Below are positions 7,845 to 27,261 of a DNA stretch of 30,355 bases, one piece after another. The translations under genes were made by a program, and so were the position numbers. Numbering within the stretch: position 1 is the first letter of the stretch; every line of letters starts with the position of its first letter. Below the pieces are notes generated by a model. It saw only the letters and a list, made by a program, of their open reading frames with translations. It ran no database searches and was not told where the DNA came from. Source of the stretch: a virus; the IMG/VR virus record IMGVR_UViG_3300033994_000555, positions 1 through 30,355 of that record, one strand, 5' to 3'.

Positions 7845-8249
7845 ATGGCTGTTCTTGCCCTAACTGATGCCAGCATCACAATCAACAGCGTTGCGTTGAG
7901 CAGCAAAGCCAACAGTGTGACCGTCAACTATGAAGTTGATTCCGTTGAAGTCACAGCGTTTGGTTCTAACCACAACTTCATTGGTGGTTTGCAGAACCTG
8001 TCTGTTGAAGTTGCGCTAATGCAAGACTTCGCAGTATCACAAACTGAAGCCACCATCTATCCGCTTGTAGGCACGACAACCACACTGGTCATCAAGCCAA
8101 CATCAGGTGCTGTTGGCGCAGCAAATCCTTCTTACACAATCACAGGTGCTTTTCTTGCTAGTCATTCACCCGTTGCTGGCGGTGTGGGAGAGTTGGCTAT
8201 GACAACGCTTTCGTTCACAGGTGGAACCATCACCAAGGCTGTTGCATAG
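7845..8249 (+). CDS. Major tail tube protein, copy 1
   Basis: A 134-residue predicted tail tube subunit. It starts MAVLALTDASITINSVALSS, is beta-rich, and contains NYEVDSVEVTAFG, GGLQNLSVEVALMQDFA, IYPLVGTTTTLVIKPTSG and LASHSPVAGGVGELAMTTLS, a pattern typical of actinophage major tail proteins. It is followed 2 nt later by a clear paralogue (8252-8686), so the phage encodes two tube-like proteins in tandem. No ribosome binding site is visible; the start follows a stop codon in the context TAGTCATGGCTG. Confidence 0.85.
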   Translation: MAVLALTDASITINSVALSSKANSVTVNYEVDSVEVTAFGSNHNFIGGLQNLSVEVALMQDFAVSQTEATIYPLVGTTTTLVIKPTSGAVGAANPSYTITGAFLASHSPVAGGVGELAMTTLSFTGGTITKAVA

Positions 8250-8251
8250 TC

Positions 8252-8686
8252 ATGGCTGTTCTTGCACTCACAGATGCAGTCATCACCATTGCTGGTGTGG
8301 CTGTACAAAGTAAAGCCAACAGCATCACATTGAATTATGAAGTTGATTCAATTGAAGTAACCAGTTTTGATGGTTCTGGCGCACGCAAGTTTGCTGGTGG
8401 TTTGCAAAACAATTCACTTGAAGTTGCGCTAATGCAGGATTTCGCTGTGACAATTCCTGCTGGTTCACCATCAACAAGCGTGGAAGCGTTGATTTATCCA
8501 TTGGTAGGAACAACTACCACTGTGACCGTCAAAGCAACCAGCGCATCAACATCTGCAACAAACCCCCTATACACATTGAGTGGAACCTTCTTGGCTTCTC
8601 ATTCACCTGTTGCAGGCGGTGTGGGAGAGTTGGTGATGACATCACTTTCTTTCACTGGTGGAACACTGGTCAAGACAACAACCTAA
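8252..8686 (+). CDS. Major tail tube protein, copy 2 (paralogue)
   Basis: A 144-residue paralogue of the preceding gene. The N-termini share MAVLALTDA, and long stretches are near-identical (KANSITLNYEVDSIEVTSF, EVALMQDFAV, YPLVGTTTT, LASHSPVAGGVGELVMTSLS). It has about ten extra residues, mainly near FDGSGARKF and TIPAGSPSTS. Both copies keep the same domain, so neither looks broken. The TAGTCATGGCTG start context is duplicated too, suggesting tandem duplication of gene plus junction. One copy may be the main tube and the other a minor or alternative subunit. Confidence 0.85.
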   Translation: MAVLALTDAVITIAGVAVQSKANSITLNYEVDSIEVTSFDGSGARKFAGGLQNNSLEVALMQDFAVTIPAGSPSTSVEALIYPLVGTTTTVTVKATSASTSATNPLYTLSGTFLASHSPVAGGVGELVMTSLSFTGGTLVKTTT

Positions 8687-18340: not shown

Positions 18341-18370
18341 TTGTGTTGCCTGATTAGGTGTGGTTATGAT
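18341..18370 (+). promoter_or_regulatory. Leaderless promoter A
   Basis: TTGTGT (18341-18346), an 18-nt spacer and TATGAT (18365-18370). ATGGAAAC starts only 7 nt after the -10 box, so transcription should start at or next to the start codon. A small CCTTA/TAAGG stem-loop (18311-18325) followed by GGTTTGCGCAGGGTAG precedes it. Four further copies of this arrangement exist in the window. Confidence 0.7.
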
Positions 18371-18377
18371 TCAGGGT

Positions 18378-18890
18378 ATGGAAACAACAAACACCACCAC
18401 CACATCAACCGCACTTCGTCAGCAAGCAATTGCAGCACAACAAGAAGCGCACGATTCATTTGAGCGTTGCGACACTGATGGGTTCATCAGCCAAGCAGCA
18501 AACCAACTGACAGCACGCAAACTGAATCTGCAAGCAACGATTCAAGACAACAATGGTCTTGCTGAGTTCCCTGCATTGTTTGACCTGAAAGGCAATTGGG
18601 TTCCTGCACAGTTGATTGACAACAAGTTTGGTGGCAAGTCTTGGTTGCTTGTTGATGAGAACGGAAAGTCACTCAGCATCTTCATCAACGCTTTTCCTGC
18701 ACGCCGTTCAACAATCGCAAACAAAGGATTCGTTGAAGGTTCAGTGTTGCGACCAGCAACCGCACAAATCTGTGGTGGTGGTCGTGGCTTCTCTGGCATG
18801 ACTTCTTGCTATGTCACAGCAGTGGCAACAACCAAGGCACATGAAGCACCTGCACAGATTGTCAGCACAGACCGATTCAACGACAACTAG
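18378..18890 (+). CDS. Conserved hypothetical, leaderless gene A
   Basis: A 170-residue soluble protein beginning METTNTTTTSTALRQQAIAA. It contains SFERCDTDGFISQAANQLTA, an ALFDLKGNWVPAQLI strand region, WLLVDENGKS and a Gly-rich C-terminal segment (ICGGGRGFSGMTSCY). I recall similar CDTDGF-type proteins in actinophages and plasmids, with no established function. Start at 18378, not an upstream in-frame codon, because the -10 box ends 7 nt before it and four other genes use the same start context. A strong terminator follows. Confidence 0.8.
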   Translation: METTNTTTTSTALRQQAIAAQQEAHDSFERCDTDGFISQAANQLTARKLNLQATIQDNNGLAEFPALFDLKGNWVPAQLIDNKFGGKSWLLVDENGKSLSIFINAFPARRSTIANKGFVEGSVLRPATAQICGGGRGFSGMTSCYVTAVATTKAHEAPAQIVSTDRFNDN

Positions 18891-18905
18891 AAACCACAAC
18901 GCATC

Positions 18906-18938
18906 AGCCCCACCTGTAAGGGTGGGGCTTTTGTGTTT
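18906..18938 (+). terminator. Rho-independent terminator of gene A
   Basis: AGCCCCACC (18906-18914) pairs with GGTGGGGCT (18921-18929), followed by TTTTGTGTTT. The same cassette, including the preceding ACGCATC, recurs after gene B at 20575. Confidence 0.9.
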
Positions 18939-18949
18939 CTAAAACAAAT

Positions 18950-19001
18950 CCACCTGCGCAGGTAAGAAACCAACAAACAACTGCGCAGGTGGAAACCTTT
19001 T
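18950..19001. terminator. Bidirectional hairpin between convergent genes
   Basis: CCACCTGCGCAG (18950-18961) and CTGCGCAGGTGG (18981-18992) form a perfect 12-bp stem. On the plus strand TTTTT follows at 18997-19001; on the minus strand ATTTGTTTTAG follows the stem. It directly abuts the end of the minus-strand HTH gene and probably terminates that operon. Confidence 0.75.
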
Positions 19002-19258
19002 TAGAGTGACCACCATTCCCTGCCCCACATCGCTGATGGGTGGCAACCAAGCCTGATGGCGATTCTGTCAGCGCGTGCATAGTGAATCGTGGCTTCACCA
19101 TCTGATGCACGCCATTTCATAAGCGTTCCTACATTCACGCCAAGTAGGTCTGCTGCATCTCGCACAGGCAGGTCATTCACTACACGCAGAATAGGTGTTG
19201 TTGATAATCGTGCAACGCGTTCACGCTTCCAAACATCTTCAACACTTACTTCTGCCAT
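19001..19258 (-). CDS. HTH DNA-binding protein
   Basis: An 85-residue protein with a helix-turn-helix-like segment (LPVRDAADLLGVNVGTLMKW, about 30-49) and a C-terminal motif HYARADRIAIRLGCHPSAMW (59-78) ending GREWWSL. The AD..AIRLG.HPS.MWG motif recurs in a plus-strand protein at 29167-29517. It is the last gene of a minus-strand operon, 3 nt after the XRE gene, so it may be a second regulator or excisionase-like protein. Target unknown. Confidence 0.75.
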   Translation of the reverse strand: MAEVSVEDVWKRERVARLSTTPILRVVNDLPVRDAADLLGVNVGTLMKWRASDGEATIHYARADRIAIRLGCHPSAMWGREWWSL

Positions 19259-19261
19259 GCG

Positions 19262-19522
19262 TCAACTTTCTGTTGGTGTATCCCCGTAGGCAACAGCCAT
19301 GATGATTGAACCCTTGACTGATTCAAGAGCCGATTCAATCGCAACCAGATAGTTGATACTTGGCAATGACTTGCCTTTCTCCCATGAACTAATCAAAGGT
19401 TGTGTGACGCTGATGCGCTTTGACAGTTCACGCTGGCTAATGCCTGCTGTCATGCGTGCTGTCAGTAGCACTGTTGCGCACTGCTTCAATTGTTCTGGTG
19501 ATACTTCATGTTTCTTTGGCAT
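19262..19522 (-). CDS. XRE-family regulator
   Basis: An 86-residue protein with a lambda repressor-type HTH (about 16-68): LLTARMTAGISQRELSKRIS, then VTQPLISSWEKGKSLPS, the classic recognition-helix and WExGxxxP pattern. Likely a repressor or Cro-like switch acting on the mixed-strand region around 20000-21600. ATG at 19522 is chosen because AGGACAGG lies about 10 nt upstream; a longer in-frame start would run into the lysozyme-like gene. No integrase accompanies it. Confidence 0.85.
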   Translation of the reverse strand: MPKKHEVSPEQLKQCATVLLTARMTAGISQRELSKRISVTQPLISSWEKGKSLPSINYLVAIESALESVKGSIIMAVAYGDTPTES

Positions 19523-19547
19523 GGTGTGCTGTCCTGTCCTAGAAGGG

Positions 19548-20030
19548 TTAGTGATTATGAATACTAGCGTTGCTTGTTGCACGCCAGTGAGAACTGCCTT
19601 CACCATTGTCCCACAGAACTGCTGCAACTTTCAGGTTGCATTCACTGTTCAGAAGTATCAGCACATCTGATGATTTGCACACACGCTTTGTAAGTGATTT
19701 CCATGTGCTATTGACCTGCAACAAGCCAAGGTCATAAGACCTGACTGCACTGCATCTGCGATAGGTGCGCACTGGTGACAACTTGCAGTTCTTGTGTGAT
19801 TTGCCTTGCTTGTAATTCCACCCGACTGCCTTTTCTTGGCAGCGCGATTCGCGCCACATCACAGGTGCAAAGAAGCGCACTGGCAGACCAGCCTTGCGCA
19901 TCGCATCGTGCCATTCAGGACAGGGCAACCCTTTGATTGGGGCTGCATCTGCATTGCTGTTTGACCAGACCATTAGAACCAGATTCAGAAGAACGCCAAT
20001 GATGATGATGCGCAAGATGGGGTGTTTCAT
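19548..20030 (-). CDS. Secreted lysozyme-like transglycosylase
   Basis: A 160-residue protein with a signal peptide or membrane anchor (ILRIIIIGVLLNLVLMVW, cleavage likely after ADAA at about 30) and a lysozyme-like domain: catalytic-type Glu61 in VMWRESRCQEKAVG, YDLGLLQVNSTWKSL (99-113) and a late helix ECNLKVAAVLWDNG. Six or so cysteines could form disulfides outside the cell. It would cut glycan strands. Its place in a minus-strand operon with a repressor, away from the lysis cassette, suggests expression at another stage, for example superinfection exclusion or wall remodelling. Confidence 0.8.
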   Translation of the reverse strand: MKHPILRIIIIGVLLNLVLMVWSNSNADAAPIKGLPCPEWHDAMRKAGLPVRFFAPVMWRESRCQEKAVGWNYKQGKSHKNCKLSPVRTYRRCSAVRSYDLGLLQVNSTWKSLTKRVCKSSDVLILLNSECNLKVAAVLWDNGEGSSHWRATSNASIHNH

Positions 20031-20239
20031 GTGTTGCTTTCACTGCCACGCTGTATGGGTGTTTCAGGGTGTCTGGCTGTCTCTAGACCCAACTGGCGTT
20101 TGCGTGTCTCACAGAGCCATACAGCGCGTCTGGCTGTGGGTCTGGTGCGCTTTGCAGGTTTGTTCTGACCACCTGTGGTGGCTATGTCGGGGACAAGGTG
20201 CAACCACCCTAGGCACAGGCTGTGTGGGTTCCCTGTCAC
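20027..20239 (-). CDS. Doubtful small basic ORF
   Basis: A 70-residue GTG-started ORF whose stop overlaps the lysozyme-like start (ATGA on the minus strand), the coupling seen elsewhere in this genome. It is rich in Arg, Thr and Pro (KPAKRTRPTARRAVWLCETR) and I recognise no family. The same stretch contains a perfect 10-bp inverted repeat (20049-20058 with 20117-20126), and it is where the minus operon promoter would be expected, so it may be non-coding control DNA instead. Confidence 0.35.
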   Translation of the reverse strand: MTGNPHSLCLGWLHLVPDIATTGGQNKPAKRTRPTARRAVWLCETRKRQLGLETARHPETPIQRGSESNT

Positions 20240-20280
20240 CTGTTTGAAAGCCTTGTCTGATAAGGGTTTGCAGAAGGTGG

Positions 20281-20310
20281 TTGTGTTCCATGATTAGTTG
20301 TGGTTATGAT
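20281..20310 (+). promoter_or_regulatory. Leaderless promoter B
   Basis: TTGTGT (20281-20286), an 18-nt spacer and TATGAT (20305-20310), then six nt (GTCTGC) to ATGGAAAC at 20317. A stem with one mismatch (AAAGCCTT with AAGGGTTT, about 20247-20269) lies upstream, as in copies C and D. Confidence 0.7.
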
Positions 20311-20316
20311 GTCTGC

Positions 20317-20562
20317 ATGGAAACCAACACAATCATCAAGTTCACAGCAGGCGAAGAAGTTTCAGCAAGGTCAATCGGTGACTATGACTGCATCTTCAAG
20401 TTCACAGTTATTTCACGCACAGCAAAGTTTGTCACGCTTCAGTATTTCAATGACATCAAGCGCGTAGGCATCAAGGTTCGCGATGGTCGCGAATACTGCT
20501 ACCCATTGGGCAATTACTCAATGGCGTGCAGTGTCTCTGCTGGCATCAATCACAACAACTAA
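20317..20562 (+). CDS. Small conserved protein, leaderless gene B
   Basis: An 81-residue protein starting METNTIIKFTAGEEV. It contains FKFTVISRTAKFVTLQYFND and GREYCYPLGNYSMACSV. The SRTAKFVT plus YPLGxYSMA pattern belongs to a small family I have seen in many phages and plasmids, with unknown function. It is expressed alone between two minus-strand transcription units, with its own promoter and terminator. Start at 20317 is set by the promoter spacing and the shared METNT start. Confidence 0.8.
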   Translation: METNTIIKFTAGEEVSARSIGDYDCIFKFTVISRTAKFVTLQYFNDIKRVGIKVRDGREYCYPLGNYSMACSVSAGINHNN

Positions 20563-20574
20563 TCACCACGCATC

Positions 20575-20608
20575 AGCCCCACCTGTCATGGGTGGGGCTT
20601 TTGCTTTT
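20575..20608 (+). terminator. Rho-independent terminator of gene B
   Basis: AGCCCCACC (20575-20583) pairs with GGTGGGGCT (20591-20599), followed by TTTTGCTTTT. Almost identical to the terminator of gene A. It lies between gene B and the convergent rep-like gene. Confidence 0.9.
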
Positions 20609-21402
20609 CACAGGAAAGATTCTGTGTAGCACCCACACTTCTTTGACTGCCACTGCTGGTCTGCATCGTTGAACACGCTGAACACACCAGAACCTTCACA
20701 CTGCACACAACCAGCATCACCTGCGATGCGTGGCAACCTGCGCTTCTGCACAGGCTCTGAACGCATCGTGGCTGTGGGTGTCGCAATCAGTTTGTTCAAC
20801 TGAATGTCAAGCATCACTGCACTAGGAACACTGCACTGCATCAACGCTTCAGTGACCTGTTGTTCTGTCCAACCAGATTTCAACGCACCATCAGCAACAG
20901 CAATCAAAGCGTGCCATGCACCTTTGCCTGTTGGGGTCTTGCCACCAGTGCGCTTCTTGTATGCGTTCCACCAGTTTTCTGCGATTGACTGCGCAGCAGT
21001 GCGTTCATGACTTTGTTTCACACTGACTATGGTTTCTGTGTCGTTTTTGTCCCTACCCGTAGGGGTGATTTTGTCGCTAGGTAGGGACATTTCTGACGCT
21101 ACCTGCGGAACAGTTATCACTGTGTATTGGTTTGATGTCAGGTCACCATTCGCACTGACGCGTTGACGCTTACGCACAGCACCAATGTCAATCAGTTCTG
21201 CTAATGCTCTGTCAATTGACTTCACTGTGCAGTTGCACTTAGCAGCCAGCGTTGCGCGTGATGGGTGGCACGCACCAGTTTCTTTGTCTGCGTATCTTTG
21301 CAATGTTGCGTACAAGCGCACAGCAGTTGCAGTGATGTTTGCATATAAGACCCATTCAGGAATGATGCTGAAATAGTTATCGGCACTGATGTTGTTGTTC
21401 AT
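20608..21402 (-). CDS. Replication initiator-like winged-helix protein
   Basis: A 264-residue protein. Residues about 10-95 form a winged HTH of the kind found in phage replisome organisers (VRLYATLQRYADKETGACHP, SRATLAAKCNCTVKSIDRAL, AELIDIGAVRKRQR). The middle is a linker and a helical domain (SIAENWWNAYKKRTGGKTP). The C-terminus has a possible metal site (CVQCEGSG at 232-239, CGC at 256-258). GGAAAG precedes the ATG. With no polymerase or helicase in the window, it likely recruits host replication proteins. An inverted repeat inside the gene (21049-21088) could be its target. Initiator role is inferred; a regulator is the alternative. Confidence 0.65.
   Translation of the reverse strand: MNNNISADNYFSIIPEWVLYANITATAVRLYATLQRYADKETGACHPSRATLAAKCNCTVKSIDRALAELIDIGAVRKRQRVSANGDLTSNQYTVITVPQVASEMSLPSDKITPTGRDKNDTETIVSVKQSHERTAAQSIAENWWNAYKKRTGGKTPTGKGAWHALIAVADGALKSGWTEQQVTEALMQCSVPSAVMLDIQLNKLIATPTATMRSEPVQKRRLPRIAGDAGCVQCEGSGVFSVFNDADQQWQSKKCGCYTESFL
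21049..21088. repeat. Inverted repeat inside the initiator-like gene
   Basis: GTCCCTACC (21049-21057) is matched by GGTAGGGAC (21080-21088). A smaller overlapping inverted repeat, CCCTAC with GTAGGG, lies at 21051-21064. Repeats inside a replication gene can be the origin, as in lambda O; here that is a hypothesis. Confidence 0.45.
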
Positions 21403-21416
21403 TGTTCTTCTTTCCG

Positions 21417-21448
21417 TTGACAGTTACCCAAACAGCCACCGATACAAT
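21417..21448 (+). promoter_or_regulatory. Candidate plus-strand promoter of the early operon
   Basis: TTGACA (21417-21422) and TACAAT (21443-21448) lie 20 nt apart, long but possible with the overlapping GATACA at 18 nt. Two further TTGACA copies at 21464-21469 and 21509-21514 share the GTTGACA context. The 217-nt space separates the divergent initiator-like gene and the YqaJ gene. Confidence 0.35.
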
Positions 21449-21521
21449 GAACAGTGGCTGCTGTTGACAGTGATGTTGATTGGCTGCCGTTGCCGTTTCC
21501 CCCAAGCGTTGACAAAGATAC

Positions 21522-21559
21522 TGCCTGTGTGCGTCTTGAAATGAGAACGCACACAGGCA
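21522..21559. promoter_or_regulatory. Perfect 13-bp inverted repeat in divergent region
   Basis: TGCCTGTGTGCGT (21522-21534) and ACGCACACAGGCA (21547-21559) are perfectly complementary with a 12-nt loop. No clear T tract follows. It could be an operator for the XRE or HTH regulator, an attenuator in the early leader, or an origin structure. Confidence 0.55.
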
Positions 21560-21619
21560 TTGTCATTTATCACCAACGGTATTCAGAACTGTGACGCACC
21601 CTTCTGTCAGTATCACTGT

Positions 21620-22540
21620 ATGAAATCAATACCAAAGCCAGAACACGGAAGCCTTCAATGGCTAGAGACACGCCACAAGCACGATGGCAAGACAATCGTT
21701 GGTGCATCAGAAGTGTCAGCAGTGATGGGTGTCAACCCATACAAAAACATCATTGACCTAGCGATTGAGAAACTGCAACCACCACAGGTGCGTGAACAGA
21801 ACCAAGCAATGAAGCGTGGCACATACCTTGAACAAGGATTGCTTGACTACGCCAGCGCAGAAATCGGAAGCCTGATTGTTACACCAGCAATGATGTATCT
21901 GAACGGAAGAATCATCAGCACCCTTGATGGTGTCACGAATGACAGCACACGATTGTTTGAAGCCAAGACAACAACTGGTTGGGTGCAAGGTGATGAATGC
22001 CTGCCTGAATGGTTCTGGCAAGCACAAGCACAGATGCACTGCACAGAAGCCACCAGAGTGACTTTCATTGTTCTTGACCGTCAACTGCGCATCACCATGT
22101 TTGATGTGTTGCGAGATGATGAAGCCATTGCAGACATGGTTGCCAAGGTTGAACTGTTCTGCACAGCCATTGATGAAGAACGATTGCCAGAAGATGTCCC
22201 ATTGTCAGCAGAGCAGGTTGCACAGTTGCACCCCACACCAGACGCAGGTGAGATTGAACTAGGCGCAGCAGGTCTTGAACTGGTGCAACGCTGGCAAACA
22301 GCCAAAGAACTAGCAAAGCAATACGCAGATGAAGAACAAACACTGAAAGACGCATTAGCAAACCTGATACGCAACCACGAATCAGGCACAATTGATGGAC
22401 ACAAAATCATCACCTACAAAGCACAAAGCACCACACGCTTTGACCAGAAAGCCTTGTTGGAAGAACAACCAGAACTGGCAAAGAAGTACCAGAAGCAATC
22501 ATCATTCAGAGTGATGCGCGTTGTAAAGGGTGCAATATGA
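21620..22540 (+). CDS. YqaJ-family exonuclease (lambda Exo-like)
   Basis: A 306-residue 5'-3' exonuclease predicted to resect double-stranded DNA for recombination. YqaJ motifs are visible: GASEVSAVMGVNPYKN (28-43), KRGTYLEQGLLDYA with Glu71, STLDGV with Asp103, FEAKTTTGW with Glu114/Lys116 (the ExK), and WQAQAQMH with Gln135/137. The C-terminal third is a coiled-coil-like region. ATG at 21620 is preferred to a TTG at 21560 because the protein then starts just before the conserved core. It pairs with the ERF annealing protein one gene later. Confidence 0.85.
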   Translation: MKSIPKPEHGSLQWLETRHKHDGKTIVGASEVSAVMGVNPYKNIIDLAIEKLQPPQVREQNQAMKRGTYLEQGLLDYASAEIGSLIVTPAMMYLNGRIISTLDGVTNDSTRLFEAKTTTGWVQGDECLPEWFWQAQAQMHCTEATRVTFIVLDRQLRITMFDVLRDDEAIADMVAKVELFCTAIDEERLPEDVPLSAEQVAQLHPTPDAGEIELGAAGLELVQRWQTAKELAKQYADEEQTLKDALANLIRNHESGTIDGHKIITYKAQSTTRFDQKALLEEQPELAKKYQKQSSFRVMRVVKGAI

Positions 22541-22773
22541 GCGATGAACAAACGATGAAAGACCAGATTGAAGATTTGATGTTGGAAGTCGCATCACTGC
22601 GCAAAGAACTATTCAAAGCAAAGCAGATAGGTGGTGGCTGGCGTAGGGCTGCCGTAGGCGCATTCACGATGACAGGTGGGTGCATTGAAGGTTGCAGGGG
22701 TGCTTGTATGTGTACCTGTGGTTATGAGCATTACCGCGCAGCAATCGCACAAGAACAGCAGGAAAACCAATGA
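22537..22773 (+). CDS. Small Cys-rich protein between exonuclease and ERF
   Basis: A 78-residue protein coupled by ATGA overlaps to both neighbours. The N-terminus is a short coiled coil (IEDLMLEVASLRKELFKAKQ). The C-terminus has five cysteines (49, 53, 57, 59, 61) in GGCIEGCRGACMCTCGYEHY, suggesting a metal-binding knuckle. Position inside the recombination operon suggests an accessory to exonuclease or annealing protein. I do not recognise a family. Confidence 0.7.
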   Translation: MSDEQTMKDQIEDLMLEVASLRKELFKAKQIGGGWRRAAVGAFTMTGGCIEGCRGACMCTCGYEHYRAAIAQEQQENQ

Positions 22774-23516
22774 GCGAATCACCACAAATCTTCAAGGCAT
22801 TAGCACTGGTGATGGCTGATGTTGGTGCTGTCCGTAAAGCAGAGTTCAACAGCCACCAGAAGTTTTCATTCAGGGGCATTGATGCAGTCATCAACGCAGT
22901 GTCACCAGCGTTCCGCAAGCATGGCGTGTTCTGCATACCAACAGTTATCAGCAGTGAGTATGAATCTGTGCAGGTTGGACAGAACAGAACAGTGATGGGT
23001 CATGCACGCGTCATGGTGCGATACACATTCCACGCATCTGATGGTTCATCAGTAGAAGCCACAGTGAGCGCAGAGAGCATGGACAGTGGTGACAAAGCCA
23101 CAGCCAAAGCAATGAGCGTTGCCTATCGCACAGCGTTGTTGCAGACATTGTGCCTGCCCACTGATGAAGCAGACCCTGACGCTGACACATTTGAGCGTTC
23201 ACCAGTCACTGCACCAGCCAAGCATGAAGAAGCAGTGCGTGTCCCACGCGCAACACAAACACCAGAACGCAAGCCTGAACCACAATCAACCAACACACGC
23301 CAAGCACCAAAACGCAGTGACGCACAAGCAACGCTGATGAACAACTTGTTGCACCAATGTGAAGTTGATGAACAGTTGATTGTTGATTCTTTCAAAGTGA
23401 AGATTGATGACATGAATGTGCCACAAGCAAAGACAGTGATTGATGCGCTGTTGCGTTTGAAGAAGGGTGAATCAGAAGTTCAGATTGGTGCTGATGGTGT
23501 CCCATTCATTCAGTGA
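22770..23516 (+). CDS. erf: ERF-family single-strand annealing protein
   Basis: A 248-residue protein. Residues 1-140 match the ERF family: FKALALVMADVGAVRKAEFN, FSFRGIDAVINAVSPAFRKH, the AESMDSGDKATAKAMSVAYR stretch (101-120) and LLQTLCLPTDEADPD. The middle is a disordered Pro/Lys/Gln linker and the end a small helical domain (TVIDALLRLKKGESE). It anneals strands resected by the YqaJ nuclease, giving RecA-independent recombination. Start overlaps the previous stop (ATGA). Confidence 0.9.
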   Translation: MSESPQIFKALALVMADVGAVRKAEFNSHQKFSFRGIDAVINAVSPAFRKHGVFCIPTVISSEYESVQVGQNRTVMGHARVMVRYTFHASDGSSVEATVSAESMDSGDKATAKAMSVAYRTALLQTLCLPTDEADPDADTFERSPVTAPAKHEEAVRVPRATQTPERKPEPQSTNTRQAPKRSDAQATLMNNLLHQCEVDEQLIVDSFKVKIDDMNVPQAKTVIDALLRLKKGESEVQIGADGVPFIQ

Positions 23517-23703
23517 TGGTGACCGTTTCAAGGTTGCTGGTTTGCGTGGTGTCTTTGTGTATCGGGGCATCAATCCTGATGGGTCTGTGCGCTGCTTTGG
23601 TGGGGTGCAGGGCAGGGAGAAATGGCGCAGTTTCCCAATATCGGCAGGGCTGAAACCCTTACGCCACAAGGGTTTGAAGAATGAGTTGCATATCTCTGAT
23701 TAG
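23494..23703 (+). CDS. Small beta-rich protein, unknown
   Basis: A 69-residue product starting at ATG 23494, 23 nt inside the end of the ERF gene. Earlier in-frame GTG starts also exist. It contains GDRFKVAGLRGVFVYRG and DGSVRCFGGVQGREKWRSFP, a compact beta pattern that looks like a real domain. Its 3' end runs through the stem-loop at 23653 and the promoter of gene C, so coding and regulatory DNA overlap. Function unknown. Confidence 0.6.
   Translation: MVSHSFSDGDRFKVAGLRGVFVYRGINPDGSVRCFGGVQGREKWRSFPISAGLKPLRHKGLKNELHISD
23653..23675 (+). terminator. Stem-loop upstream of promoter C
   Basis: AAACCCTT (23653-23660) and AAGGGTTT (23668-23675) form a perfect 8-bp stem with loop ACGCCAC. The same stem and loop, within a 27-nt identical block, occur at 26291-26313. 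It may terminate upstream transcription before the leaderless promoter, although no T tract follows. Confidence 0.6.
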
Positions 23704-23716
23704 GTGTGCTTATAAT
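23686..23716 (+). promoter_or_regulatory. Leaderless promoter C
   Basis: TATAAT (23711-23716) is followed by six nt (GTCTGT) and ATGGAAAC at 23723. TTGCAT (23686-23691), 19 nt upstream, is the likely -35. CTGATTAGGTGTG in the spacer is shared with promoter A. Confidence 0.7.
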
Positions 23717-23722
23717 GTCTGT

Positions 23723-23935
23723 ATGGAAACACGCACATACCGCAACTACACAATCATCAAGACAGAAAGTGGCTTTGGTGGTCGCATTCATGGTGAAGTT
23801 TTCTACAAGACAACTTGTGGCAATTTCGCACACCCAACCCTGAAGGGTCTGAAGGCTCTCATTGATGCCCGACTTGAAATGACTGCTGATGACATCGCGC
23901 ATCGTGACGCAATCATTGCAATGCTTACCAAGTAA
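23723..23935 (+). CDS. Small protein, leaderless gene C
   Basis: A 70-residue protein starting METRTYRNYTIIKTESGFGG. It has a strand-strand-helix pattern with an amphipathic C-terminal helix (LKGLKALIDARLEMTADDIA). The following gene shows the same pattern (YRGIIIHKST ... LANAIAEIDERI), so the two may be distant relatives. Start set by the -10 to ATG distance. Expressed with the next gene, which has its own ribosome site. Function unknown. Confidence 0.75.
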   Translation: METRTYRNYTIIKTESGFGGRIHGEVFYKTTCGNFAHPTLKGLKALIDARLEMTADDIAHRDAIIAMLTK

Positions 23936-23962
23936 CAACCAACACACATCAAAGGAAACCAA
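23933..23962 (+). repeat. 30-nt leader repeat, copy 1
   Basis: The 30 nt from the TAA stop of gene C through AAAGGAAACCAA are identical to 27232-27261 after gene E. It holds the ribosome binding site AAAGGA for the second gene of each pair. Confidence 0.85.
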
Positions 23963-23965
23963 ACC

Positions 23966-24205
23966 ATGAACACCAACACCAAGCCAATCAAACTAAAAAC
24001 AGGTCGCTATTCGTATCGTGGCATCATCATTCATAAGTCAACAAGACTTGGATTTGTATTCACCATTCAACATGGAAACCCAAACTGCACTTGGTACTAC
24101 GGTGGCATCGGAACACTTGCCAATGCAATCGCAGAGATTGATGAACGCATTGCTAGTGGCGATTTCATTATCAATCGCACAGGATTGAAGCAGGTGAAGT
24201 GGTGA
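23966..24205 (+). CDS. Small protein, partner of gene C
   Basis: A 79-residue product with AAAGGA 12 nt upstream. The sequence TGRYSYRGIIIHKSTRLGFV leads into FTIQHGNPNCTWYYGG and a helix TLANAIAEIDERIASG. This beta-beta-beta-alpha layout resembles gene C and several other short proteins here. It might be a small nucleic acid binding fold, but no known family is recognised. Stop overlaps the next start (GTGA). Confidence 0.75.
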   Translation: MNTNTKPIKLKTGRYSYRGIIIHKSTRLGFVFTIQHGNPNCTWYYGGIGTLANAIAEIDERIASGDFIINRTGLKQVKW

Positions 24206-24417
24206 GTACCAAACAAGCCAAGCGCAGCAAGTGTCACTTCTGTGGGCAGACCATGACAGAGAAGCCAGTTATCAAAGCAACTGATGCAGAACGCTTCATC
24301 AACGAATACTGCGCAGAAGATGAAGAACTGGTGTGGGTCGCCAAAGATGGCAACGCGATTTGCTACGCAGATGGCATTGCACACTGCACAACTAAAGATT
24401 GGTACGCGTGCCAATGA
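24202..24417 (+). CDS. Small CxxC protein
   Basis: A 71-residue protein from the GTG that overlaps the preceding stop. CHFCGQTM near residue 11 and CYADGIAHC near residue 54 supply paired Cys/His ligands for one metal site. The middle (VIKATDAERFINEYCAEDEE) is helical and acidic. Unknown function; early-operon position suggests a takeover or DNA-metabolism accessory role. Confidence 0.7.
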   Translation: MSTKQAKRSKCHFCGQTMTEKPVIKATDAERFINEYCAEDEELVWVAKDGNAICYADGIAHCTTKDWYACQ

Positions 24418-24584
24418 GCAGACAAGATGACTTGCGATTCACTGGTGCGTACATCGTCACCACACCAGATGAACAACTGCTAATTCACACAGTCAGCGAT
24501 GGCACTGTGCGTGTGGCAAAACGCAAAGACCCAACAGACACTTGGCAACCGCCAGTGTGGGGCAAGCAGGTTCCACATGAGTGA
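24414..24584 (+). CDS. 56-residue protein, unknown
   Basis: Starts at an ATG overlapping the preceding stop (ATGA) and ends inside the next gene (ATGAGTGA). The product begins MSRQDDLRFTGAYIVTTPDE and continues with short strands (QLLIHTVSDGTVRVAKR), then a Trp/Pro-rich end. Tightly coupled on both sides, so likely real. No family recognised. Confidence 0.6.
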   Translation: MSRQDDLRFTGAYIVTTPDEQLLIHTVSDGTVRVAKRKDPTDTWQPPVWGKQVPHE

Positions 24585-25074
24585 CCAGCCAGACCTGTTC
24601 AGCGTTGCTGATGACGATGCTTTGCCCTATGCAGGCACAGCAGGCTTTGTCAGCCAACCAGCAAGCGCACAACGCGCACAGAATGAAGCACGCTCTGGTG
24701 AAGCCACAGCACGCGCACGCGCAGTCCTAACGCACCTAGAAGCCCACCCTGAAGGCTTGACATGGAAAGAACTAGCAACCCTGATGAACCTGCATCATGG
24801 TCAGGTTTCTGGTGCGCTGTCCAACCTGCACAAGTCAGGTCATGTGTTCATGCTTCACGCACAACGCAATCGTTGCCACCCTTACTGCCATGCCAAGCAT
24901 CGTGTGAACTATCCACCAGCAGCGCGCATTGATGAACCAGCACAAACCAAAGCAGGCAAACGCAAAGACGATTTAGAACAGTTGCTGATACTTGTGCAGA
25001 CAGCAGTGAAGTTTGGCAGACTGCAAGACAGTGAAATTGTCAAACACATCAACAGAATGAAGAACGAATCATGA
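24577..25074 (+). CDS. Winged-helix DNA-binding protein
   Basis: A 165-residue protein with a central winged helix (about 46-95): ARAVLTHLEAHPEGLTWKEL then ATLMNLHHGQVSGALSNLHK and the wing SGHVFML. It is followed by RCHPYCHAKH, possibly a metal ligand cluster. GLTWKEL..(x)LHHGQ.SGAL is a pattern I know from actinophage HTH proteins of unknown target. The C-terminal tail is basic then helical. Coupled to the PAPS-reductase-like gene (ATGA). Confidence 0.8.
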   Translation: MSDQPDLFSVADDDALPYAGTAGFVSQPASAQRAQNEARSGEATARARAVLTHLEAHPEGLTWKELATLMNLHHGQVSGALSNLHKSGHVFMLHAQRNRCHPYCHAKHRVNYPPAARIDEPAQTKAGKRKDDLEQLLILVQTAVKFGRLQDSEIVKHINRMKNES

Positions 25075-25868
25075 AGCACTGCGTACAGTTCAGCACTGGC
25101 ATTGGCAGCGCAGAAGTAGCACGCAGGGTTGAACAAATCGCTGCACCAGAAGATGAACTGATACTTCTCACTGCTGACACAATGGTTGAAGATGATGACA
25201 ACTGGCGATTTGCTGAAGAAGTAGTTGCCAAACTTTTATCACCAAGATGGAAATGGATTGTCTTGCGTGATGGCAGAACACCGATGCAAGTAGGTAGAGA
25301 CAAAAGGGTTGTGCCAAACAACAGACTTGCTGTGTGCAGCAAGGTCTTGAAATCAGAAATCTTGAATCGTTGGATAAAGCACAACTGTGACCCTGAAAAC
25401 ACAATCATTCATCTTGGTTTTGATTGGACAGAGCCACACAGATTTGAGCGTTCAGAACCACTGTGGAAGCCATACCAGATTGACGCTGTACTGATGCGTG
25501 AGCCATACAGAGAGAAATCAGCGTTGATGCAAGAGTTCCGTGACTTAGGCGTTGAACCACCACGCTTGTATTCAGTTGGCTTCAGCCACGCAAACTGTGG
25601 TGGTGCGTGTGTGCGTGGTGGTCAGGCATCATGGAAACTGCTTTACCAGTGGAACCCTGAACGCTTCAAGGAATGGGAAGAAGAAGAAGAACGCACCAGA
25701 ACGATGTTGGGCAAAGATGTTGCGATGATGCGTGAAACCGTGAAGGGTGAAATGCGCCCACTGACCCTGCGCCGATTCCGTGAACGCATTGAAGTACAAC
25801 CACAACTTTTTGAAAAAGATGATTGGGGTTCTTGTGGCTGCTTCATGGACACAGAAGAAGAACAATGA
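25071..25868 (+). CDS. PAPS reductase-like ATP pyrophosphatase
   Basis: A 265-residue adenine-nucleotide alpha-hydrolase-type protein. The PP-loop is degenerate: FSTGIGSAEVA (7-17) in place of SGGKDS. Other hallmarks are LLTADTMVEDDDNWRF, VLRDGRTPMQVG, VCSKVLKSEILNRW with Cys89, LGFDWTEPHRFERSEPLW, HANCGGACVRGGQASWKLL (Cys176, Cys180) and CGCF near the end. This is a common actinophage family annotated as PAPS reductase, but the true substrate is unknown; nucleotide or base modification is as plausible as sulfate reduction. Coupled on both sides by ATGA overlaps. Confidence 0.8.
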   Translation: MKHCVQFSTGIGSAEVARRVEQIAAPEDELILLTADTMVEDDDNWRFAEEVVAKLLSPRWKWIVLRDGRTPMQVGRDKRVVPNNRLAVCSKVLKSEILNRWIKHNCDPENTIIHLGFDWTEPHRFERSEPLWKPYQIDAVLMREPYREKSALMQEFRDLGVEPPRLYSVGFSHANCGGACVRGGQASWKLLYQWNPERFKEWEEEEERTRTMLGKDVAMMRETVKGEMRPLTLRRFRERIEVQPQLFEKDDWGSCGCFMDTEEEQ

Positions 25869-26284
25869 CAGAAGAAGAACCAGCACGCAAAGGTGAATGC
25901 CCATGTGGGTGTGACCTGTTCGGCAACATCACCAATGGTCGCCATGTGCGTGGCTGTGCCTGCAATCGTTGCAGGGGCAAACGCAACAGAAGCAAAGGTG
26001 ACAACAAAGCACGCAAAGCACGAAAGGCTTTGGGCATTGGTGGTGTCAACAGCAGACATGAAGAAGTGTGGGGTGGTGCGCTGCGTTTAGAAGTCAAAGC
26101 AGGTGCGCAAATCAAACCAGTGGTGACTGCGTTTCTGCGCTGTGAAGTTCAGTCAGAGCAGGCACGCCCGATTGGTGACCACAGACCCTTCATGATGGTG
26201 GCGATGCCTGATGGCTGGTCTGATGGGCTGATTGTGATGCGCCTATCTGATTACACCAAGCATCATGGGATTGAGCCTATCTAG
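25865..26284 (+). CDS. Cys-cluster protein with nuclease-like core
   Basis: A 139-residue protein. The N-terminal metal knuckle has Cys12, 14, 16, 31, 33 and 36 (ECPCGCD and GCACNRCRGKRNRSKG), then a basic helix (NKARKARKALGIGG). The core HEEVWGGALRLEVKAGAQ carries Glu66/67, Glu76 and Lys78, with Glu94/Gln96 after it, consistent with a PD-(D/E)xK nuclease or Holliday junction resolvase-like fold. It ends MVAMPDGWSDGLIVMRL. A structure-specific nuclease would suit the recombination operon. Motif-based inference, not certain. Confidence 0.6.
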   Translation: MTEEEPARKGECPCGCDLFGNITNGRHVRGCACNRCRGKRNRSKGDNKARKARKALGIGGVNSRHEEVWGGALRLEVKAGAQIKPVVTAFLRCEVQSEQARPIGDHRPFMMVAMPDGWSDGLIVMRLSDYTKHHGIEPI

Positions 26285-26290
26285 GTTCTG

Positions 26291-26313
26291 AAACCCTTAC
26301 GCCACAAGGGTTT
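26291..26313 (+). terminator. Stem-loop upstream of promoter D
   Basis: AAACCCTT (26291-26298) with AAGGGTTT (26306-26313), loop ACGCCAC, directly after the stop of the preceding gene. Identical to the stem-loop at 23653-23675. Confidence 0.65.
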
Positions 26314-26324
26314 GCGCAGGGTAG

Positions 26325-26354
26325 TTGTGTTGCTTGATAAGCCATGCCTATGAT
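26325..26354 (+). promoter_or_regulatory. Leaderless promoter D
   Basis: TTGTGT (26325-26330), an 18-nt spacer and TATGAT (26349-26354), then six nt (GTCTCT) to ATGGAAAC at 26361. The upstream sequence GGTTTGCGCAGGGTAG is shared with promoter A. Confidence 0.7.
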
Positions 26355-26360
26355 GTCTCT

Positions 26361-26558
26361 ATGGAAACCAACACCACCTTCATCAACAACAACACCAAGT
26401 TCACCATTGTTCAAATCAAAGAACACAGCGAGAACTTCAGCACCCAACTTGGCTGGTCACACTTTGCAGAAATCAAACGCGTGAATGGTCGCAAGTCCTA
26501 CTACGCCAACCTTCTCATTGTTGATGGCGCAGTTGTTCAGACAAAGGTGGTCATGTGA
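26361..26558 (+). CDS. Small protein, leaderless gene D
   Basis: A 65-residue protein starting METNTTFINNNTKFTIVQIK. The pattern FAEIKRVNGRKSYYANLLIV is beta-rich and basic. No family recognised. Start fixed by the shared promoter-to-ATG spacing. The stop overlaps the next start (TGATG), so the two are co-transcribed. Confidence 0.75.
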   Translation: METNTTFINNNTKFTIVQIKEHSENFSTQLGWSHFAEIKRVNGRKSYYANLLIVDGAVVQTKVVM

Positions 26559-26755
26559 TGACTAAGCCACACACACCAATCAACCAGTTGATTCTTGACA
26601 GCAAAGACCTGTCACAGTTCCCCATCACACGCGTGGCGCAGGGCTGGCAGGTCATTGACCAGCGTGAAGGGTTCTGCCATCACCCACGCATCTTCAAGAC
26701 CAAGCGTGCAGCGCAGGTGGCTATCTGCTCTGTGGTCAAGCAGGCAATGTCATGA
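26558..26755 (+). CDS. Small protein, partner of gene D
   Basis: A 65-residue product, MTKPHTPINQLILDSKDLSQ followed by FPITRVAQGWQVIDQREGFC and a C-terminal helix (FKTKRAAQVAICSVVKQAMS). The strand-strand-(F)KTKRAAQ helix pattern resembles gene E (HSFKTQKQAQQFID). A GTG at 26555 is an alternative start adding one residue. Function unknown. Confidence 0.65.
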   Translation: MTKPHTPINQLILDSKDLSQFPITRVAQGWQVIDQREGFCHHPRIFKTKRAAQVAICSVVKQAMS

Positions 26756-26796
26756 GCCTGCCAGAAGCGTCAGGAAGCCCTGTGAGCGTCTTTCAG

Positions 26797-26826
26797 GGCT
26801 GGCAGGGGCTGAACCACCCCACAGCC
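26797..26826 (+). terminator. Hairpin between gene D partner and gene E
   Basis: GGCTG...GGGG (26797-26808) pairs with CCCC...CAGCC (26817-26826) with a small internal asymmetry. It resembles the post-endolysin hairpin and lies in the 150-nt gap before promoter E. That gap otherwise holds only the promoter; a reading frame through it from ATG 26752 continues into gene E. Confidence 0.45.
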
Positions 26827-26895
26827 ATCAGCAAGGCTTCTGAAGGCTTGTCAGGGAATCTGCCCCCAATGCCACAACCAGTCATCAGTTGTGGT

Positions 26896-26901
26896 TATGA
26901 T
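26896..26901 (+). promoter_or_regulatory. Leaderless promoter E (-10 box)
   Basis: TATGAT followed by six nt (GGGGCT) and ATGGAAAC at 26908. AGTTGTGGT just upstream is shared with promoter B, but no good TTG-type -35 is seen at 18 nt, so this copy may depend on an extended -10 or an activator. Confidence 0.6.
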
Positions 26902-26907
26902 GGGGCT

Positions 26908-27234
26908 ATGGAAACCAACACACCAGCACCAACCATCACCAAGACTGTCATGCACAATGGCGTTGCAATTCGCAGGTCAAACGAAATGACAAACAGCAAC
27001 GCCTATCTGAACCGCAATCCGTTTACATGGGTTGTTGATGGACACGCAACCAAGCATTCATTCAAGACACAGAAGCAAGCACAGCAGTTCATTGATGACA
27101 CCATCAAGGCAGAAGCCACCAACGCCTATGGCGATTGGTCAGGTAACTACTTCATCGTTCGTGCTGTTGATGGCAAGTTCACAGAAGTTGCAATCAGCCG
27201 TGATGAATACACAGCAATCAAAGCCACCCGATAA
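26908..27234 (+). CDS. Small protein, leaderless gene E
   Basis: A 108-residue protein starting METNTPAPTITKTVMHNGVA. It contains NPFTWVVDGHATKHSFKTQK and a helix QAQQFIDDTIKAE, then a second half FIVRAVDGKFTEVAISRDEY. An in-frame ATG at 26752 overlaps the previous stop and would add 52 residues, but it would translate the hairpin and promoter, and the METNT start is shared with four other genes. Followed by the 30-nt leader repeat and a partner gene. Function unknown. Confidence 0.7.
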   Translation: METNTPAPTITKTVMHNGVAIRRSNEMTNSNAYLNRNPFTWVVDGHATKHSFKTQKQAQQFIDDTIKAEATNAYGDWSGNYFIVRAVDGKFTEVAISRDEYTAIKATR

Positions 27235-27261
27235 CAACCAACACACATCAAAGGAAACCAA
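27232..27261 (+). repeat. 30-nt leader repeat, copy 2
   Basis: Identical to 23933-23962, again starting with the TAA stop of a leaderless gene and carrying AAAGGA for the following start. Confidence 0.85.

Follow-up and report, generated by a model that had tools for sequence, protein, structure and literature searches.

In the cluster K mycobacteriophages, start-associated sequences (SAS) and extended SAS (ESAS) recur at the starts of non-structural genes of unrelated families. The SAS is a 13-mer that contains a Shine-Dalgarno (SD) sequence and lies 3-7 nt before the start codon, so that SAS genes are leadered; the ESAS comprises a putative SigA-like promoter and a ~17-bp imperfect inverted repeat whose arms do not covary, and some gene families carry the element in certain phages and lack it in others (PMC3203893; PMC11373665). 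Adephagia gene 90 has been proposed to be a leaderless gene beside an ESAS (PMC11373665). In T4-like phages, the promoter-early stem-loop (PeSL) is a mobile regulatory cassette in which an early promoter, repeated between small genes, stands next to an inverted repeat, and it is reported to mediate modular gene shuffling (Arbiol 2010; Comeau 2014, via PMC4503421). Leaderless genes of bacteria carry TANNNT ~12 bp upstream of the start (PMC3160421). Here we describe a family of promoter-start modules in the virus record IMGVR_UViG_3300033994_000555, analyzed over its entire 30,355 bases (the window). A preliminary description of this DNA knew of no such module in phages; similar kinds exist in the SAS/ESAS and PeSL, and what is new is that the joint extends from the promoter through the transcription start and the start codon into the first codons.

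As judged by sequence comparison with related viral contigs, the modules share a box with rigid spacing, the genes behind them turn over, and the joints fall at start boxes and at a stop codon or terminator. We regard it as likely that, in this phage clade, most of these leaderless promoter-start boxes serve as fixed sockets for expression in the non-structural half of the genome, at which small accessory genes of nearly always unknown function are exchanged. In each copy, a leaderless promoter of the sigma-70 type would be fused directly to the start codon.

The window contains ATGGAAAC starts at 18378, 20317, 23723, 26361, and 26908, with TATGAT or TATAAT ending 6 nt before the ATG in four copies and 7 nt before it at 18378. 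A TTG hexamer (TTGTGT or TTGCAT) stands 18-19 nt from the -10 box in the first four copies and is absent at 26908, and the five proteins are mutually unrelated beyond their first ~6 residues; in all of this the preliminary description was accurate. Matches to TATNATN6ATGGAAAC with at most two mismatches number 6 (0.47 expected), a count reached in 0 of 100 shuffled sequences. When the copies were compared, the repeat proved longer than had been described: four of them belong to one 94-nt family, in which an inverted repeat, AAACCCTT-N7-AAGGGTTT, lies upstream (type A), and the fifth, at 26908, has a different upstream half without the TTG -35 (type B).

All five modules lie on the plus strand. 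The promoter of module 1 (18341-18377) has a -35-like TTGTGT at 18341-18346, the core TGATTAGGTGTGGTTATGAT at 18351-18370, TATGAT at 18365-18370, and the 7-nt gap; its gene (18378-18890) encodes a 170-amino acid protein, METTNTTTT..., of phrog_5855 (unknown function) and is followed directly by an intrinsic terminator-like hairpin with a T-run (18906-18929, plus strand), forming a monocistronic cassette. Module 2 has an imperfect inverted repeat, AAAGCCTT-N7-AAGGGTTT (20247-20269), a promoter (20281-20316) with TTGTGT, the core at 20291-20310, TATGAT at 20305-20310, and a 6-nt gap, a gene for the 81-amino acid METNTIIKFT... (20317-20562), and a further terminator-like hairpin 3' of it (20575-20599, plus strand). 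Behind erf, module 3 comprises the repeat AAACCCTT-N7-AAGGGTTT (23653-23675), a promoter (23686-23722) with TTGCAT, a 19-nt spacer, TATAAT at 23711-23716, and a 6-nt gap, and the gene for the 70-amino acid METRTYRNYT... (23723-23935). Module 4 has the same repeat (26291-26313), a promoter (26325-26360) with TTGTGT, the core TGATAAGCCATGCCTATGAT, the -10 box at 26349-26354, and a 6-nt gap, and encodes the 65-amino acid METNTTFINNN... (26361-26558). The promoter of module 5 (26822-26907), of the second upstream type, has its core at 26882-26901, TATGAT at 26896-26901, and a 6-nt gap, and precedes the gene for the 108-amino acid METNTPAPT... (26908-27234). No cargo protein was assigned to a Pfam family above the cut-off, and the window had no match in Rfam.

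Scans of viral contigs with two window proteins and with DNA patterns yielded 16 related records (designated by G numbers below), all of them metagenomic contigs and six of them 29-31 kb long. In the window and these relatives, 26 ATGGAAAC modules precede genes of 17 families, between which no similarity is seen once residue 6 is passed; the unrelated small genes served by the module number at least 17, and in this respect it resembles the SAS and ESAS. Since that search required ATGGAAAC, we repeated the test with a matrix of only the 20 nt ending at the -10 box, which carry no information on the ATG. An ATG follows 6-7 nt past the -10 box in 32 of the 34 best matches, and random sequence produced one match of ≥18 in 1.1 Mb. 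The two exceptions (G001 and G017) have the same promoter followed by a ~45-nt leader with an SD sequence before the gene. Seven more copies have TAATCT as the -10 box, likewise 6-7 nt from the ATG, and together with the 37 modules scored for TANNNT and SD sequences below they bring the leaderless-type modules to 44; a search of related phages for the box, as had been proposed, shows that the modules recur. A consensus promoter scanner did not report the module promoters, because their -35 is poor. In contrast to the SAS, it is the promoter of the module that directly adjoins the ATG, and the sequence in common continues into the coding region. The consensus differs as well: the SAS consensus GGGATAGGAGCCC was not found 3-7 nt before the start, a place taken by the -10 box and the 6-nt gap. 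The closer analogue of the SAS proper is a different box in the window, AAAGGAAACCAA.

TANNNT is present at -12/-13 in 37/37 modules but in 11 of 217 other genes, five of which are further module copies with TAATCT. SD sequences precede none of the 37 modules, compared with 49 of the 217 other genes; they were scored with purine-rich motifs, because a set of all 4-mers of the anti-SD complement would match the TGAT of the -10 box. TATRAT was not found within 60 nt upstream of the non-module genes. The modules thus combine the two sequence features of TA-led leaderless genes, the position of TANNNT and the absence of an SD sequence, and resemble leaderless genes of Actinobacteria and other bacteria in the position and type of the -10 box (PMC3160421; PMC3898074); however, bacterial leaderless promoters serve individual host genes, whereas these form a dispersed repeat family with swapped cargo. 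The mean folding energy from +1 to +40 is -0.8 kcal/mol for modules versus -4.7 kcal/mol for other genes, and the 6-nt gap keeps its length while its sequence varies (GTCTGT, TCAGGT, GGGTGC, CCCTGT, GAACCC, GGGGCT). With rigid spacing, no SD sequence, unstructured 5' ends, and a probable actinobacterial host, the prediction that module mRNAs are leaderless is well supported. The first transcribed base would be the A of the ATG or lie no more than about one base from it, so that the promoter would also set the translation start and a ribosome binding site would not be needed. Alternatively, the promoters might be real and the mRNAs leadered, with transcription starting farther upstream or other translation starts in use, and the fixed spacing might be a mere legacy of one ancestral DNA joint. 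Shared ancestry of the box would indeed preserve spacing, two copies drive leadered SD genes, and in-frame upstream starts occur in some copies; we nevertheless consider this explanation unlikely, given a gap of constant length and varying sequence, the lack of SD sequences in every module, and upstream starts whose positions are not conserved.

The first codons are A- and C-rich, with the consensus M-E/N-T-N-T. All five window proteins begin Met-Glu-Thr, as noted before, but this start is not universal: in the relatives the same promoter is followed by M-E/N-T-N-T-like codons, MNTNT among them, and also by MNKN, MEEI, MEIT(S), MEIN(H), and MTS. If METNT were kept for a reason at the level of the protein, such as a common N-terminal stability or targeting motif, similarity reaching about codon 5-6 in unrelated proteins would be expected. 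That is seen, but the variety of first residues behind one promoter makes such a motif quite improbable, and SD-led genes here also often begin MNT or MKT, which points to a constraint on nucleic acid or initiation instead. The first codons would be kept because they are part of the joint and leave the 5' end of the leaderless mRNA unstructured.

Exchange of genes behind a resident promoter can be followed downstream of erf, where the ATG lies 205-206 nt past the erf stop codon in ten phages and 216 nt past it in one. This slot holds at least seven different first genes: METRTYR in the window, MNKNAK in G009 and G010, METNQNIK in G011, MEINHS in G005 and G006, METTS/MEITS in G003 and G015, MTST in G002 and G008, and METNTKK-CHFCGQ in G007. 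In G001, the promoter behind erf leads directly to an SD-led gene. The METNQNIK gene is 98.7% identical at the DNA level in G001 and G011 over 230 nt, which start at the ATG and run up to the CAAAGGAAACCAA box ahead of the following gene; beyond these limits, the promoter sequence, the locus, and the next gene all differ, and the G001 promoter closely resembles promoters that serve unrelated genes in the window and in G010. Positions 18937-20327 of the window match G001 at 93.6%; the match stops ~10 nt inside the open reading frame (ORF) of module 2 and returns at the stop codon/terminator, and where the window has METNTIIKFT..., G001 has METKKVTAKQ.... When all pairs are compared, identity between promoters is as high as 0.95 for unrelated genes at the same locus and as low as 0.37-0.66 for several homologous gene pairs; the homologue of the module 1 gene in G002 stands under a different promoter, and in G001 and G003 the homologues of the module 4 gene follow an upstream region of the other type. 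These comparisons indicate that, as a rule, the promoter stays in place and the gene downstream of it is replaced, the joint falling within the start box. Complete cassettes of promoter and gene are also inserted, as in G009, which has 383 nt of this kind between window positions 24585 and 24586. METNT codons are gained or lost with the module in two families, one represented by METNTTSRKHN versus MTSRKHN and the other by METNTKKTTKRSKCHFCGQ (leaderless) versus MNTTKQAKRSKCHFCGQ (SD) versus VSTKQAKRSKCHFCGQ. In other families the first codons differ. The proposal that promoter and first codons spread as a unit is thus no more than half correct, since the promoter mostly stays at its locus while the gene is swapped.

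Like the PeSL, the modules are associated with modular shuffling of small genes. The PeSL joint is intergenic, and PeSL genes keep their own ribosome binding sites; the module joint, in contrast, spans the start codon, and its carrier is not a T4-like myovirus but a ~30-kb phage with HK97-type capsid, terminase, and tape measure genes. Cassettes 1 and 2 have the look of promoter-gene-terminator units placed among phage genes, in which they resemble the morons and boundary sequences of lambdoid phages. Morons bring their own promoter, whereas the module promoter mostly stays and the gene is exchanged.

If the modules were instead diverged paralogues that arose by gene duplication and kept an ordinary promoter and N-terminus, with no exchange at the joint, the 94-nt repeat common to four copies and the promoter kept by some homologous genes would be explained. 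The 17 families without similarity past residue 6, the abrupt change of identity at the ATG in the G001/G011 and G001/G010 comparisons, and the erf-linked promoter at constant distance with different genes behind it already contradict this account, and we find it very improbable. That the exchange is an artefact of metagenome assembly, with different phages joined at short repeats, is hardly credible: the contigs are all metagenomic and repeats of 30-90 nt are a classic site of misassembly, but the same arrangements occur behind erf in separate contigs (G005/G006, G003/G015, G009/G010), and homologues under different promoters have diverged (63-77% protein identity in the METNTTF family).

In the comparisons, the left joint of an exchange lies in the shared -10/ATG/first-codon box, and the right joint coincides either with the stop codon/terminator or with the SD-type start box, AAAGGAAACCAA, that precedes the following gene. 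In the window, AAAGGAAACCAA lies at 23951-23962 and 27250-27261 (plus strand), before the genes starting at 23966 and 27265. More generally, CAAAGGAAACCAA(N0-4)ATG is a second recurrent start-associated sequence, of SD type, found before 1-5 genes per phage in the window, G001-G003, G005-G007, G009-G011, G015, and G017; it is the right-hand joint of at least one exchanged gene. The probable agents are the phage's own recombination proteins acting on short shared boxes: a YqaJ-like exonuclease (21620-22540, plus strand) and its candidate partner, an Erf-like single-strand annealing protein (22770-23516, plus strand), whose gene adjoins the post-erf socket.

Several points weigh against this picture. 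Leaderless initiation is argued from spacing and analogy, and some copies have in-frame starts upstream; the reading frame of the 26908 copy, for example, stays open as far upstream as 26752. Judged by terminase, the closest phage isolate, which infects the actinobacterium Pontimonas, is only 39% identical, and the role of Erf and YqaJ in driving exchange, albeit likely, is a step that we infer. Lastly, some homologous gene pairs also share their promoter (0.75-0.96 identity), so that promoter and gene must sometimes be inherited together.

With promoter, transcription start, and translation start in one ~25-nt box, a recombined ORF would be expressed in frame without a ribosome binding site of its own and would gain an M-E/N-T-N-T start. 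We tentatively suggest, at somewhat less than even chances, that a leaderless start has been turned into a gene-capture socket, with conserved positions and cargo that turns over. Such a combined start box would explain how tiny unrelated genes are swapped without loss of expression, and it would link leaderless translation and phage mosaicism, which are usually separate topics. It also provides a simple rule, TGTGNTTATRAT-N6-ATG, by which related phages can be searched for genes that are accessory and possibly directed at the host.

The type-A inverted repeat has an 8-7-8 arrangement upstream of the -35 and is centered near -59 in fixed phase; it is absent in type B. An RNA hairpin was considered and rejected, as pair 6-22 is broken in 13 of 24 copies and no compensating change accompanies this, which makes a DNA-binding protein more likely. 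The repeat is probably a protein-binding site that co-regulates the set, a suggestion with weak support. It is shorter than the ESAS repeat, with no compensatory changes; compared with the PeSL stem-loop, the module likewise has a promoter, but its inverted repeat lacks RNA-hairpin behavior and a T-run of its own.

The structural genes of the window encode a terminase, portal, S78 protease, HK97-type capsid, tape measure, PA14-domain protein, and VanY peptidase, and are followed by the module region with minus-strand helix-turn-helix proteins, the YqaJ exonuclease, and the Erf annealing protein. A helix-turn-helix protein is encoded at 19262-19522. Megablast of the window against isolated phages gave no match. 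Among isolated phages, Pontimonas phage phiPsal1 has the most similar terminase (39% identity), which suggests, without proving, an actinobacterial host; a module family of this kind was not found in phiPsal1. A YqaJ profile search of genome contigs for a host or prophage returned only remote Chloroflexi matches, 34-47% over short pieces.

Related boxes occur farther afield. The distant relative G012 (IMGVR_UViG_3300010885_021350; Erf 66%, YqaJ 42%) has three METN modules, in which the box is again of the TTATGAT/ATGGAAACRAAC type but the upstream element, AAGTNNNACTTTACTTTT, is different. G020 (IMGVR_UViG_3300008952_000207), in which no similarity to the window proteins tested was detected, carries four or more GTGCTTATAAT-like boxes, each placed 6 nt ahead of the ATG of a different gene (METKP, MKAGD, MKNLE, MDKAF), and the module core may therefore be a more general leaderless promoter. 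A box of another kind, GTGACRCACCC-N-TCTG, lies 20-30 nt before the YqaJ start (window 21591-21619) without an SD sequence and is conserved in all relatives; it may represent a further promoter, of another type, that gives a short leader or none. In the structural region, two neighboring homologous genes at 7845-8686 form an apparent tandem duplication (76-79% DNA identity in several stretches). Finally, the 265-amino acid protein encoded at 25071-25868 has no Pfam match at E≤0.001 and is kept at 61-96% identity in viral contigs that differ widely in G+C.

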